Positions 9,393 through 20,085 of a DNA stretch of 31,365 bases are shown piece after piece (position 1 is the first letter of the stretch; every line of letters starts with the position of its first letter). Below the pieces are notes generated by a model. The model worked only from the letters and a program-made list of their open reading frames with translations, was not told the DNA's origin and ran no database searches. The position numbers were made by a program, and so were the translations under genes. Source of the stretch: a virus; the IMG/VR virus record IMGVR_UViG_3300030060_004475, positions 1 through 31,365 of that record; one strand, written 5' to 3'.

Positions 9393-9532
9393 TGGAAAAT
9401 ATAAGACTTTATTTTATTAATAGTATGGCAGTAGGGTTTTCGCTAATTAATATTAATATGATATTGTCTACGCTTGTTTTAATTGCATCTTTAATATGGA
9501 CTATAATACAAATAAAAGATAAGTTAAAATGA
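9392..9532 (+). CDS. Small single-span membrane protein (lysis cassette)
   Basis: A 46-residue ORF, too short for standard ORF cut-offs. It starts on the fibre stop (TAATG) and ends on the next start (ATGA). A hydrophobic stretch from about residue 13 to 40 (MAVGFSLINI, LVLIASLIWTII) and a basic end (KDKLK) suggest one inner-membrane helix with a cytoplasmic C-terminus. The position at the head of the lysis genes suggests a holin accessory or antiholin role; this is inference. Confidence 0.55.
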   Translation: MENIRLYFINSMAVGFSLININMILSTLVLIASLIWTIIQIKDKLK

Positions 9533-9936
9533 ATATTCCTCGCAATGGCGTTGCAAAAGATATAAGGCACTATGTAGGATCATTAATAGTGTTTTTTCTT
9601 GTGGTTGTGATTTTGTACTATTTGACAAAATACACTATACCTACAGAGAATGCACAAATAGTAAACACATTAATAGGAATGATTGCAGCAAGCATAGCTA
9701 TGGTAATCAGCAGTATCACGGGATCAAAGCCAGATGATGTGCAATCGCTTAAAAATCAACTTGAAAGGAAAGAAAATCAAATTGACTTGCTTGTAAAAGA
9801 AAAAGATAGATTAGAAAGTATGATAATACAATTGCAAAAGCAGATGCTTGAAAATCAAGATAACATTATGGATAAAGTAATCCTAAAGGCTGCAATTGAT
9901 TTTGATGAAAGAAATAACCCACCAAAAAATAAATAA
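9529..9936 (+). CDS. Membrane protein with two helices and coiled coil (holin/spanin-like)
   Basis: 135 residues. Two membrane helices at about 16-34 (VGSLIVFFLVVVILYYL) and 44-65 (VNTLIGMIAASIAMVISSIT), then a long charged coiled coil (70-115; LKNQLERKENQIDLLVKEKDRLE) and a polar tail. Two helices near the N-terminus plus coiled coil is a common layout for phage holin-associated or inner-membrane lysis proteins. The position before the endolysin supports this. It could also be a spanin-like or structural membrane protein. Confidence 0.55.
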   Translation: MNIPRNGVAKDIRHYVGSLIVFFLVVVILYYLTKYTIPTENAQIVNTLIGMIAASIAMVISSITGSKPDDVQSLKNQLERKENQIDLLVKEKDRLESMIIQLQKQMLENQDNIMDKVILKAAIDFDERNNPPKNK

Positions 9937-9937
9937 T

Positions 9938-10015
9938 ATGAAAGATACACAATGCCAATGTGGCAACACTTCGGATGCTAACGGTTACTGTGATGGTAGC
10001 CACATTAATTCTTAA
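9938..10015 (+). CDS. CDGSH-like miniprotein (25 residues)
   Basis: The ATG at 9938 lies 1 nt after the previous stop, and the TAA at 10013-10015 is 1 nt before the next ATG. The product contains CQCGNTSDANGYCDGSH. The C-x-C-x2-T-...-CDGSH arrangement carries the three Cys and the His that ligate the 2Fe-2S cluster in CDGSH (mitoNEET-type) domains. The canonical spacing is C-x-C-x2-[S/T]-x3-P-x-C-D-G-[S/A/T]-H; here there is one extra residue and no Pro. Normal CDGSH domains have about 35-40 residues, so this is minimal. Exact fit between neighbouring genes argues for a real gene. Cluster binding and function are unproven. Confidence 0.65.
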   Translation: MKDTQCQCGNTSDANGYCDGSHINS

Positions 10016-10016
10016 T

Positions 10017-10184
10017 ATGGAAACTTTGACAATTTTACTTATAATTGTTTTGATTATAAGTGGTATAATGATGCTTTTAACATCCTTTGGACTTTTTACG
10101 GATAAGAACAAAAACAATATACCAGATTATTTAGATAAAAAATTTGAGGATTTAAAAGAAGAGATCAACAAATTAAAAAAATGA
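10017..10184 (+). CDS. Small membrane protein of the lysis cassette
   Basis: 55 residues from the ATG at 10017. A hydrophobic helix (about 3-25, TLTILLIIVLIISGIMMLLT) is followed by DKNKNNIPDYLDKKFEDLKEEINKLKK, a charged helix likely to be cytoplasmic. A longer frame opens upstream at 9960 but would overlap the CDGSH miniprotein and have no leader, so 10017 is preferred. Its stop overlaps the endolysin start. A holin or antiholin role is possible. Confidence 0.6.
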   Translation: METLTILLIIVLIISGIMMLLTSFGLFTDKNKNNIPDYLDKKFEDLKEEINKLKK

Positions 10185-10549
10185 TTTATTTTAAATTAGA
10201 TGAATTTGACTCTCCTGATTTACCCAACTCAGGCATTAATATGGATAAAAACTTCCTTAATATGCTTGATGATGCAAGAAAATATGCAGGGGTACCCTTT
10301 AAAATCAATTCAGGATATAGAACAGAATTGCATAACGATAAAGTTGGGGGTAAGCCTAAAACAAGAACATCAAAGGGAAGTAGCCATATGTATGGATTTG
10401 CTGCAGATATTTCTGCCAACTCAGGAAAGGAAAGATGGACGATTATTGAAGCGCTTATATTTGCAGGGTTTAAGCGTATCGGAGTTGCAAAATCCTTCAT
10501 CCACGTTGACAATGACCCTGATAAACCCAACGCAATTTGGAGTTACTAG
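10181..10549 (+). CDS. Endolysin, peptidase M15 family (D-Ala-D-Ala carboxypeptidase-like)
   Basis: 122 residues, a single-domain M15 peptidase (VanY/peptidase M15A type). Conserved elements: INSGYRTELHN (43-52), SSHMYGFAADI with zinc ligands His69 and Asp76, and FIHVD with His108. The enzyme should cleave peptide cross-links or stems in peptidoglycan at the end of infection. No signal peptide is visible, so release depends on a holin. The start overlaps the preceding membrane gene by 4 nt, and a holin follows 18 nt downstream. Confidence 0.85.
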   Translation: MIYFKLDEFDSPDLPNSGINMDKNFLNMLDDARKYAGVPFKINSGYRTELHNDKVGGKPKTRTSKGSSHMYGFAADISANSGKERWTIIEALIFAGFKRIGVAKSFIHVDNDPDKPNAIWSY

Positions 10550-10567: not shown

Positions 10568-10987
10568 ATGCCTAAAAAGAAAATTAAAGACACAGCAGTA
10601 GGGAGATTTTTGCTTGAGAAAATTCCAGATGTAGTTGGCGCAATTGCTGACAATACTGCTGTTGGTAGTGTTTTAAATGCTATTATTGGTGGATCAAGTA
10701 TGTCAGATGCAGACAAAGAAGTTGCATTAAAAAAATTAGATTTAGAAAGAGCAGAAATAGACGGAACAACCCGCAGATGGGTTGCAGATGCAAGGTCGGG
10801 AAGTTGGCTAGCACAAAATGTAAGACCCTTAACATTGGCATTTTTAACAATCAGTTATGTAGTGGGATGGTATTTAGGATATCCCCTAGACTCTATTACA
10901 GGGCTTTTAAGCGTTGTTATAGGCGGTTATTTTGGTTCTAGGGGGGTAGAGAAGGTTTTTGGAAATAAGATGCACAGGGATGCTTAA
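10568..10987 (+). CDS. Holin, 3-TM type (GTA_holin_3TM-like)
   Basis: 139 residues. The motif TRRWVADARSGSWLAQNVRP (about 68-87) followed by two or three hydrophobic helices (LTLAFLTISYVVGWYLGY, SITGLLSVVIGGYFGSRG) matches the 3-TM holin family described from gene transfer agents and many aquatic phages. An N-terminal helix (VGAIADNTAVGSVLNAIIGG) may be the first membrane or amphipathic segment. It should make the inner-membrane lesion that releases the endolysin encoded just upstream. Confidence 0.75.
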   Translation: MPKKKIKDTAVGRFLLEKIPDVVGAIADNTAVGSVLNAIIGGSSMSDADKEVALKKLDLERAEIDGTTRRWVADARSGSWLAQNVRPLTLAFLTISYVVGWYLGYPLDSITGLLSVVIGGYFGSRGVEKVFGNKMHRDA

Positions 10988-15414: not shown

Positions 15415-15756
15415 ATGAGCGACAAATATCTTTTTTATGAAAAAATTGATGCAGTAAAAACTGCAACTATTGATGCTGATCTTGCGTATGTTTTGACTGC
15501 TTTTAATAAACTTGTTAAAGAGAATCCTCAAAATGAAATGTATAAGGAAATAACAAAATGTTTAGTAAATATATTTGGCATTGTTTCTTCTTATCATCTT
15601 GATAGACAATTTTATCATCAAGCTATAAATGAATATAGATCAGATAAATTAAGAGCAATTGAAAGAGCAAGAAGGGCTGAAAAATTAGAGGAGAAACCTA
15701 AAAAAAGCCTTGATGATTTGACCGAAAATTTAAAAAATAAATTAGAACAATTATGA
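15415..15756 (+). CDS. Hypothetical helical protein
   Basis: 113 residues, almost all helical (KIDAVKTATIDADLAYVLTAFNKLVKE, a strongly charged C-terminal helix YRSDKLRAIERARRAEKLEEKP). First gene after the TATATTTG promoter. Its stop overlaps the methyltransferase ATG (ATGA). Possibly a DNA- or protein-binding adaptor; not recognised. Confidence 0.55.
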   Translation: MSDKYLFYEKIDAVKTATIDADLAYVLTAFNKLVKENPQNEMYKEITKCLVNIFGIVSSYHLDRQFYHQAINEYRSDKLRAIERARRAEKLEEKPKKSLDDLTENLKNKLEQL

Positions 15757-16892
15757 ATGCTTTAGAGTTAAGAGATAACGCAAAACAACAACTAGCAGAA
15801 ATCAAAACAATAGAATCAGGAGTTGAATATCTAAACAAAGTTAAAGCGATTGAGGTTTGGGCAAGAGCAGAAAAGAAAGATGCTGAATTACAAAACATAA
15901 TAGCAGAACAAAAGTTAAGAACACAAAAAATATTAGGTGGTTTATTGAAAGAAGAAGTAAAAGTTGGTAATCCTCAATTGTCACAAGCAAGTACAATTGG
16001 ATTAAATCAATTTGGGATAAGTAGAAATGGATCTTCAGCATTTCAAAAAATAAATTGGTTTGCAGAAAACTATCCAAAGGAATTTGAACAAGAAATAGCA
16101 ATAGCAAAAGAAGAAACAAATAAGAGAATAGAACTTACTACAATTAGAATGTTAAAAGTTGCTAAACATTATGATAAACTTGAAAAAAGAAAAAAACAAG
16201 GTGAAGTAATAAAAACAATTAATATATCAGATAAAATAAAAAATGGAAATAGTTTAGAAATACTTAAAACACTTCCAGATAATTGTATTGATATCGTTTT
16301 AACTGACCCTCCTTATGGCATAGATTATAAAAGCAATAGAAGTGAATTTAAAAATTCAATTACAAGCAAAGGTTTATTAAATGACAATAAAAAAGACGCA
16401 TTATTTTTATTAGATGAAACTTGTAAAATATTATTAGATAAAACATCAGAAAATTCACATTTATATTTTTTTTGCAGTTGGTCTGTATTTAGTTCTTTTG
16501 AATCTATAATTAGTAAATACTTTACAATTAAAACTCCAATAGTTTGGAACAAAGGAAATAAAGGATCAGGGGATTTAGAAAATGATTGGGGAAATCAAAC
16601 TGAATTAATTATTTACTGTACTAAAGGGAAAAAAAAGATAAACTACAGAAAAGGCAACGTTATATTAGTTCCTAAAGTACATAGCAGCAAATTGATACAT
16701 CCAACACAAAAACCAATAGAACTTATAAAAGAAATATTAGAAGTAAGTGCTTTAAAAAATGATTTTGTTGTTGATCCTTTTATGGGTTCAGGCAGCACAA
16801 TAAAAGCCTGTAATGAATATGGTTTAAAAAGTTTAGGCATAGAATTAGATGAAGAAATGTTTTTAATTGCAAATAATTATATAAATGAATGA
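15753..16892 (+). CDS. DNA methyltransferase, DPPY (N6-adenine type, beta class) with helical N-terminal domain
   Basis: 379 residues. The catalytic domain (about 160-379) has motif IV TDPPYG (184-189), a substrate region with IVWNKGNKGSG and WGNQTELIIYCTKGKKK, HPTQKP (316-321), and motif I DPFMGSGST (341-349). Motif IV before motif I is the beta order; DPPY suggests N6-adenine. Residues 1-150 form a separate helical region (ELQNIIAEQKLRTQKILGGLL) that I recall from phage regulatory/replication proteins. The enzyme likely modifies phage DNA to escape host restriction. The stop overlaps the next gene by 8 nt. An ACGTTATATTAGT copy at 16657-16669 is coding here and lacks a following ATG. Confidence 0.85.
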   Translation: MNALELRDNAKQQLAEIKTIESGVEYLNKVKAIEVWARAEKKDAELQNIIAEQKLRTQKILGGLLKEEVKVGNPQLSQASTIGLNQFGISRNGSSAFQKINWFAENYPKEFEQEIAIAKEETNKRIELTTIRMLKVAKHYDKLEKRKKQGEVIKTINISDKIKNGNSLEILKTLPDNCIDIVLTDPPYGIDYKSNRSEFKNSITSKGLLNDNKKDALFLLDETCKILLDKTSENSHLYFFCSWSVFSSFESIISKYFTIKTPIVWNKGNKGSGDLENDWGNQTELIIYCTKGKKKINYRKGNVILVPKVHSSKLIHPTQKPIELIKEILEVSALKNDFVVDPFMGSGSTIKACNEYGLKSLGIELDEEMFLIANNYINE

Positions 16893-18726: not shown

Positions 18727-19162
18727 AATAAAAGCAAATACTAATAATCCTAGAGTAATAAAAGATTATAAGTTTAAAAAACTTGTTCAATCAATTAAGG
18801 AGTTTCCAGAAATGCTTGAAAAAAGACCTATTGTTGTTGATGAAGATATGATTGTTCTAGGTGGAAATATGCGATTAAAAGCGTGTATTGAAGCGGGTTT
18901 ATCTGAAGTGTATATAAATATTGCTGAGGGATGGACAGAGGATCAGAAAAAAGAGTTTATTATAAAAGACAATATAAGTTTCGGTGAATGGGATTGGGAT
19001 ATATTAGCTAATGAATGGAATGTAGATGGCCTTAATGATTGGGGTTTAGACTTGCCCCCTATGTTTGATGAGCCAAAAGAACAAAAAAAAACTGATGAGA
19101 CTATTTTGTGTGATACTTGCGGATTAGAATTGAAATTTAAACTTACAAACAATCAAAAATGA
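18707..19162 (+). CDS. ParB N-terminal-domain-like protein
   Basis: 151 residues. ParB/Srx-type N-terminal domain: NTNNPRVIKDYKFKKLVQSI (11-30), EMLEKRPIVVDED (35-47), VLGGNMRLKACIEAG (50-64), which is the GGN(M/R)R nucleotide-binding signature. No ParB HTH domain follows; the C-terminus ends with WGLDLPPMFDEP and CDTCG. Phages often place such proteins beside DNA methyltransferases. It may be a small nuclease/CTPase-like modification or regulatory factor. Its stop overlaps the C5 methyltransferase ATG (ATGA), indicating a functional pair. Confidence 0.7.
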   Translation: MKIEINKIKANTNNPRVIKDYKFKKLVQSIKEFPEMLEKRPIVVDEDMIVLGGNMRLKACIEAGLSEVYINIAEGWTEDQKKEFIIKDNISFGEWDWDILANEWNVDGLNDWGLDLPPMFDEPKEQKKTDETILCDTCGLELKFKLTNNQK

Positions 19163-20085
19163 AATTAAATTTGTTGGATTTATTCAGCGGTATAGGGGGT
19201 TTTCATTTGGGTCTAGAAAGGTCAGGTTTTCAAATAAGCTCTCACTTTTCAGAGATAGATAAAAATGCAATAGACGTTTATAAATACAACTTTAAAAATT
19301 CAAACTATGTCGGATCAGTTACAGATGTTCAACAAAAAAGATTACCAAAAATTGATGCCATCACTTTTGGAAGTCCTTGCCAAGATTTTAGTGTGGCTGG
19401 AAAACGTAAAGGTTTGCAAGGAAGTAAAAGCTCCCTTATTAGTGAAGCAATTCGACTCATCTGCGAATGCAGACCAAGTTTTTTTATATGGGAAAATGTT
19501 AAAGGAACTTTCTCCTCAAACGTTGGCGAAGACTTTTGGGCAATTATCCAAGCCTTTACCAACATTGGGGGTTATCGACTTGAATGGCAACTGCTTAATT
19601 CAAACTGGTTTTTACCCCAAAACAGAGAGAGAATCTACCTTGTCGGATATCTTAGAGGAAAAAGTAGAAGACAAGTATTTCCTATCGGAGAAAGCAACAC
19701 AAAGATTAATGAGTTACAAAGACAATGTACAAATACCATTGCAGCAAGAAGAAGGGATGGCCAGGGATCGTATGTTATTGAAAGTAAACTCAATGCACAA
19801 GTCAAAGCAGTCATAGGGGACTTTAGATTTGATGAAGGATACAGAGAGAGATTTAATGGGGAATCTCCAACTCTTCATTTAAAATGTGGTGAAGATATTA
19901 TAGTTAATAAAATTAGAAGACTAACACCAGTTGAATGTGAAAGGCTCCAAGGGTTTCCTGATAATTGGACACAAAAAGGAGTTAATGGGCCTATATCAGA
20001 CTCACAGAGATACAAAATGTGTGGTAATGCTGTGACTGTTGATGTAGTGAAAGAGGTTGCAAAAAATATTTTAAAAATCTTATAG
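19159..20085 (+). CDS. dcm: DNA (cytosine-5) methyltransferase
   Basis: 308 residues with all main C5-methyltransferase motifs: I LLDLFSGIGGF (5-15), IV GSPCQDFS with catalytic Cys74, VI WENVKG (111-116), VIII QNRERIYLVG (154-163), IX RLTPVECERLQGFPD (254-268), X GNAVTV (289-294). The target recognition region (about 165-250) includes TIAARRRDGQGSY. Probably modifies phage DNA against host restriction. The last cistron of the replication/modification operon; its upstream partner is ParB-like. Confidence 0.9.
   Translation: MKLNLLDLFSGIGGFHLGLERSGFQISSHFSEIDKNAIDVYKYNFKNSNYVGSVTDVQQKRLPKIDAITFGSPCQDFSVAGKRKGLQGSKSSLISEAIRLICECRPSFFIWENVKGTFSSNVGEDFWAIIQAFTNIGGYRLEWQLLNSNWFLPQNRERIYLVGYLRGKSRRQVFPIGESNTKINELQRQCTNTIAARRRDGQGSYVIESKLNAQVKAVIGDFRFDEGYRERFNGESPTLHLKCGEDIIVNKIRRLTPVECERLQGFPDNWTQKGVNGPISDSQRYKMCGNAVTVDVVKEVAKNILKIL

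Follow-up and report, generated by a model that had tools for sequence, protein, structure and literature searches.

A 25-residue CDGSH-like protein encoded in a phage lysis cassette and its relatives in viruses and bacteria

CISD/NEET proteins (PF09360), which are about 50-90 amino acids long, and the tandem type 6 proteins (MmCISD, 3tbn; CISD3, 6avj) carry the signature C-x-C-x2-[ST]...C-D-G-[ST]-H, which contains three Cys and one His. The residues of CxC..[ST]...CDG[ST]H shape the [2Fe-2S] pocket, and the CISD module has been described as depending on a dimerisation part built as a beta-sandwich, on a lid-proline strand and on the residues Phi1, P11 and Phi12 (PMC3174974). In type 6 CISD, about 20 residues lie between the motifs (PMC3174974). 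Here we describe a protein that shares this signature within only 25 residues, encoded in a viral sequence of 31,365 nucleotides (IMG/VR record IMGVR_UViG_3300030060_004475; the whole stretch is referred to as the window). Judged from titles and abstracts, the papers found to mention both CDGSH and phage apparently describe no phage mini-CDGSH protein; the word 'phage' does not occur in the text of one CISD survey (PMC3174974), nor 'virus' in the text of another (PMC5859297). The mini-CDGSH family, for which neither a family model nor a paper was found, is largely undescribed, though some members could be among the 'orphan' CISD proteins in the supplementary list of PMC3174974.

A mini-CDGSH gene in a phage lysis cassette

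The mini-CDGSH gene occupies positions 9938-10015 (+) of the window, from an ATG at 9938 to a TAA at 10013-10015, and encodes the 25-aa protein MKDTQCQCGNTSDANGYCDGSHINS. One nucleotide separates it from the stop codon of the ORF before it (9529-9936) and one from the next ATG, at 10017; these coordinates confirm the sequence-only reading of a 25-residue ORF fitted with 1-nt gaps between two membrane-protein genes. The motif codons span 9953-10003, and the putative ligands are C6, C8, C18 and H22. As had also been claimed, the three Cys and one His of the CDGSH consensus are kept in MKDTQCQCGNTSDANGYCDGSHINS, with one extra residue and no Pro. The 51-nt codon pattern for the motif matched once in the window and not once in 100 dinucleotide shuffles.

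The gene is encoded within a lysis cassette, an earlier label that is supported by an M15-type endolysin, E (10181-10549, +; PF08291, 5e-13; phrog_894 endolysin, 4.6e-26), and a holin-family protein, H (10568-10987, +; phrog_3427 holin, 4.4e-12). The first gene of the cassette encodes P46 (9392-9532, +), a weakly holin-like 46-aa protein with one transmembrane (TM) segment (Phage_holin_2_2, E 0.006, below cutoff; phrog_920 holin, E 0.005) that was found in most related cassettes. The mini-gene lies between S (9529-9936, +), a membrane protein that has a coiled coil at its C-terminus and weak spanin-like matches at best, and T (10017-10184, +), a 55-aa TM protein assigned to phrog_27828, of unknown function. 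At the nucleotide level, the cassette had no match among phages. T carries a TDKNKNNIPD loop just after its TM segment; in its homologues from L087, L106 and L443 the loop follows DxDxDGxPD (TDKDKDGIPD) and resembles a calcium-binding loop. Two M15 endolysin-like ORFs flank the holin gene, in the order E-H-E, in the related cassettes L015, L016, L093, L475 and L501. Elsewhere in the window, two DNA methyltransferase-like ORFs were noted at 15753-16892 (+) and 19159-20085 (+), with the motifs DPPYGIDY and GSPCQDFSVAG read by eye.

When compared with CISD/NEET proteins, the window protein was found to contain the four-ligand set C-x-C ... C-D-G-[STA]-H. The exact 17-residue CISD motif, with x3-P-Phi before CDG, was found neither in this protein nor elsewhere in the family: six residues rather than five precede CDG, and the place of the Pro is taken by a Gly two positions ahead of the third Cys. 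The N-strand, the lid-proline motif and the beta-sandwich dimerisation module are likewise absent, and 25 residues leave no room for them. The PF09360 score was 16.2 bits (E 0.013) against a Pfam gathering cutoff of 29.5, no Pfam, NCBIfam or PHROG model accepted the protein, and a sequence search of the PDB returned 3tbn alone, weakly (E 0.047). Because the Pro, the beta-sandwich and the CISD length are missing, and both the spacing and the Pfam score fall outside the CISD definition, the protein should on its sequence be called a CDGSH-like variant rather than an established NEET protein. AlphaFold models of a single 30-aa member of the family (pLDDT 72, pTM 0.29) and of a doublet from Opitutae (pLDDT 54, pTM 0.23) carried no fold information, and Foldseek/VIA searches with the 30-aa model gave no match.

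Conservation of the gene was examined in 80 viral loci collected using the S protein alone, blind to the motif. A mini-gene with all four ligands intact was present beside S in 23 of these loci, and all four nearest relatives by S (71-79% identity) carried it. Because the detection pattern itself demanded the ligands, a full-sensitivity HMM search for remnants served as a guard against circularity. The 23 intact copies were recovered at E 4e-12 to 4e-17, and the other 57 loci held no remnant, the next match having an E of 1.3. Three more copies were reached via the endolysin (L027, L029 and L033). Among 20 distinct sequences, the ligand codons had a pN of 0 against a pS of 0.79, and pN/pS across the whole motif was 0.27. 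Loss of the four ligands in related phages and interruption of the frame in close relatives had been named as grounds for abandoning the sequence-only reading; what was found instead was 23 of 80 loci intact without a single amino-acid change at a ligand, and no degenerate copy among the 80. The 25-aa ORF of the window is a real, strongly conserved gene.

The start of the mini-gene is A-rich and frequently overlaps the S stop. The distance from S to E is 154 nt in L448, which has one small TM gene, versus 228 nt in L482, which has the mini-gene and a TM gene of the same type; the same comparison with T gave 178 nt in L450 versus 249 nt in L474. The mini-gene behaves as a clean extra gene between the same neighbours, as if inserted or lost cleanly. 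Related cassettes showed the gene orders S-C-T-E-H, S-T-C-E-H, S-C-E-H and E-H-C, where C denotes the mini-CDGSH gene. Motif position 5, an Asn in the window protein, is a further Cys in many lysis-cassette copies (CKCGCT), including those of L443, L463 and L482, which brings their total to four Cys and one His.

Relatives in other viruses and on bacterial chromosomes

The spread of the family was determined with a codon pattern for C-x-C-G-x-[ST]-x6-CDG[ST]H, in which x6 stands in place of the canonical x5 spacing. The x6 motif was found in at least 120 viral stretches. The family is made up of proteins of about 21-33 aa with the signature C-x-C-G-x-[TS]-x-[ND]-x-x-G-x-C-D-G-[ST]-H, which the window protein fits. 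Among the viral matches listed, 67 were stand-alone, with no more than 6 residues of tail, 39 had longer C-terminal tails and 13 formed the C-terminal tails of long ORFs, including XkdF-type and WYL_2 proteins. Two positions left free by the pattern were also kept in the viral and host matches listed: [ND] at position 8 and Gly at position 11. The Gly was kept in 88 of the 92 distinct motifs from phages and in 79 of the 83 from hosts.

A lysis gene homologous to S, E or H of the window was found within 1 kb of the motif in 68 of the 119 viral x6 loci listed (57%), and a lysis-gene homologue lay within 200 nt in 49 of the 119. Compared with sites placed at random within those loci, the motif had an average rank of 0.22 (n = 73), about 8 standard errors below 0.5 for loci that are not independent of one another. 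Homologues of the window's lysis cassette were found near none of 120 canonical x5 viral motifs, a contrast rather than a controlled test, as the x5 phages differ. The lysis neighbourhood of the window gene recurs in relatives. The idea of a near-minimal CDGSH protein belonging to lysis cassettes stands as far as conservation and recurrence are concerned, but the family is not confined to them, since it also occurs on bacterial chromosomes and as tails of phage proteins.

The x5 viral set also consists of short proteins or tails in viral contigs, such as MRQCTCGRSNAYPYCDGTHK; unlike the window protein, these have the canonical spacing and usually the Pro. Phage WYL_2/SH3-barrel proteins with a C-terminal CDGSH tail carry x6 in L083 and L118 and x5 in L206, L216, L232 and L238, and the occurrence of both spacings on WYL_2 tails makes x6 and x5 look interchangeable. 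In L338, a recognisable type-6-like tandem CISD (3tbn, 4.3e-11), the first motif is x6-spaced and the second canonical. XkdF-like ORFs of other phages (L126, L107, L189 and L194) terminate in ...MSKTQCRKNGQCACGKTSNALGLCDGSHLK; the XkdF-type protease of the window (PF14550; 4-1350, +) has no CDGSH tail.

The carriers are probably phages of marine flavobacteria. No S relatives were detected as prophages in 299 Flavobacteriaceae genomes, in a search that had no positive control. Annotated phages searched with three family members yielded chance-level matches or none, and a plasmid search for the family found none.

The same codon pattern was applied to bacterial genomes, one per species, and 116 loci were listed. 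Family members on the chromosomes of Flavobacteriales, Paenibacillaceae and other groups share the length class and signature of the window protein (for example MKADRPKCGCGNTSNAEGYCDGSHLNK and MGKCACGNTQNTEGNCDGSHAKKDK); they differ in lying on a chromosome outside any lysis cassette and, within Flavobacteriales, in mostly following YceI. The Flavobacteriales version, encoded by MAGs and by isolates including Polaribacter (for instance P. glomeratus ATCC 43844, L347), is 26-30 aa long (about 27) and is exemplified by MKADRPKCGCGNTSNAEGYCDGSHLNK; Paenibacillaceae encode 25-aa MGKCACGNTQNTEGNCDGSHAKKDK-like proteins. The pattern was present in 10 of 199 Flavobacteriaceae genomes and in 16 of 59 Paenibacillaceae genomes. 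Opitutae encode mini-CDGSH doublets, and the 11-residue linker of one of these (L381) is shorter than the stretch of about 20 residues between the motifs of type 6 CISD (PMC3174974).

A YceI-family gene was located directly upstream of the mini-gene, on the same strand and mostly 20-80 nt away, at 52 of the 116 genome loci listed, and several host loci were without YceI. A representative YceI neighbour matched PF04264 at 4e-23, and the neighbours as a group were diverse (median identity 39%, minimum 19%). An NADPH-dependent FMN reductase gene directly followed the mini-gene, with a gap of -1 to 2 nt, at 13 of the loci listed; at some loci pirin came after the reductase, and at others a MarR regulator lay upstream. 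The mini-CDGSH genes of Flavobacteriales apparently sit in operons with YceI, and the neighbourhood of YceI, FMN reductase, pirin and MarR suggests, as an argument by association, a role in redox or electrophile stress. The Flavobacteriales orders MarR-YceI-mini-CDGSH and YceI-mini-CDGSH-FMN reductase-pirin (L322-L441, for example L334 and L360) are apparently unreported, and no literature linking CDGSH to YceI was found.

Candidate roles of the mini-CDGSH family

We propose that the mini-CDGSH protein is essentially one CDGSH-type loop of about 25 residues, residing in the cytoplasm, in which C6, C8, C18 and H22 would hold a single metal centre; a labile [2Fe-2S] cluster is the likeliest candidate, with Zn or Fe possible. 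A [2Fe-2S] cluster would probably be held in an oligomer. Phages would carry the gene as an optional member of the late/lysis operon, a position that would place its expression late in infection, and its product, as a small redox/metal carrier or buffer, would keep the infected cell working until lysis; the host counterpart would serve likewise in the YceI operon. For this explanation as a whole, that of a metalloprotein of about 25 residues which resides in the cytoplasm, acts as a late-made redox/metal helper of phages and belongs to a family common to hosts, we estimate a probability of about 0.45. In its favour are the evidence of coding and the purifying selection acting on the ligands, the conservation of motif positions 8 and 11, clean presence and absence, proximity to lysis genes, the host linkage to YceI, the x6 spacing inside the L338 tandem CISD and the use of either spacing on WYL_2 tails. 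Against it, the protein has no room for a beta-sandwich or lid-proline strand and lacks P11, which are described as requirements of the module (PMC3174974). Also counted against it are the AlphaFold models devoid of fold information, the associative nature of the operon argument, with several host loci lacking YceI, and the absence of S matches from the 299 Flavobacteriaceae genomes, which were searched without a positive control. Judged from sequence, metal binding is the part that is likely, while the odds that the bound centre is specifically [2Fe-2S] are even; a role in redox maintenance is a tentative proposal, and a direct effect on lysis is distinctly unlikely.

Three other explanations were weighed. 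A decayed or chance ORF, a functionless overlapping-frame or spacer sequence, would fit the very short length of the gene and the failure of every library model to reach its cutoff. However, the ligands are invariant despite saturated silent change, no degenerate copies exist among the loci, the motif recurs independently in viral and bacterial genomes, and shuffles gave zero matches; this extremely improbable candidate was dropped as ruled out by conservation. A dedicated lysis regulator, which would sense redox or bind metal, tune the holin, the membrane proteins or the M15 endolysin and so set the time of lysis, draws on the recurrent placement of the gene among S, T, E and H in several orders and on its proximity to an endolysin of a metal-dependent family, M15 peptidases being metal-dependent. 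Yet 57 of 80 related cassettes lack the mini-gene, its place within the cassette varies, homologues sit on chromosomes without any lysis gene and the motif also tails other phage proteins. A dedicated timer is the less likely because the gene is missing from most related cassettes and turns up again at sites distant from lysis genes; the earlier idea of a lysis-timing sensor is weakened in particular by chromosomal copies behind YceI and by tails on unrelated phage proteins, and we consider such a regulator improbable.

A zinc-binding knuckle in place of an iron-sulfur site would make the protein an interaction module, with the same loop acting as a docking or stabilising tail on different phage proteins. 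Consistent with this, the known [2Fe-2S] architecture is impossible for a monomer without the beta-sandwich, and the loop is used as a C-terminal tail (XkdF-type, WYL_2) and in short-linker doublets. However, CxC..[ST]...CDG[ST]H comprises the residues of the [2Fe-2S] pocket (PMC3174974), and D-G-[ST] would be needless for a zinc knuckle; this alternative seems rather unlikely.

Returning to the metalloprotein helper, we suggest as a possible but still doubtful generalisation that a family of 25-30 residues holds a [2Fe-2S] or other metal centre by the CDGSH loop alone, functions with YceI in a bacterial redox-stress operon and has been taken into phage late/lysis operons as a redox/metal helper. 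Because family models miss mini-CDGSH genes, the family is likely unannotated in many viral contigs and several bacterial groups. If mini-CDGSH proteins do bind a cluster, they would rank with the smallest iron-sulfur proteins in nature, and the view that a CDGSH module cannot do without a beta-sandwich partner would be contradicted. The linkage to YceI offers a testable way into the function of the family in bacteria.
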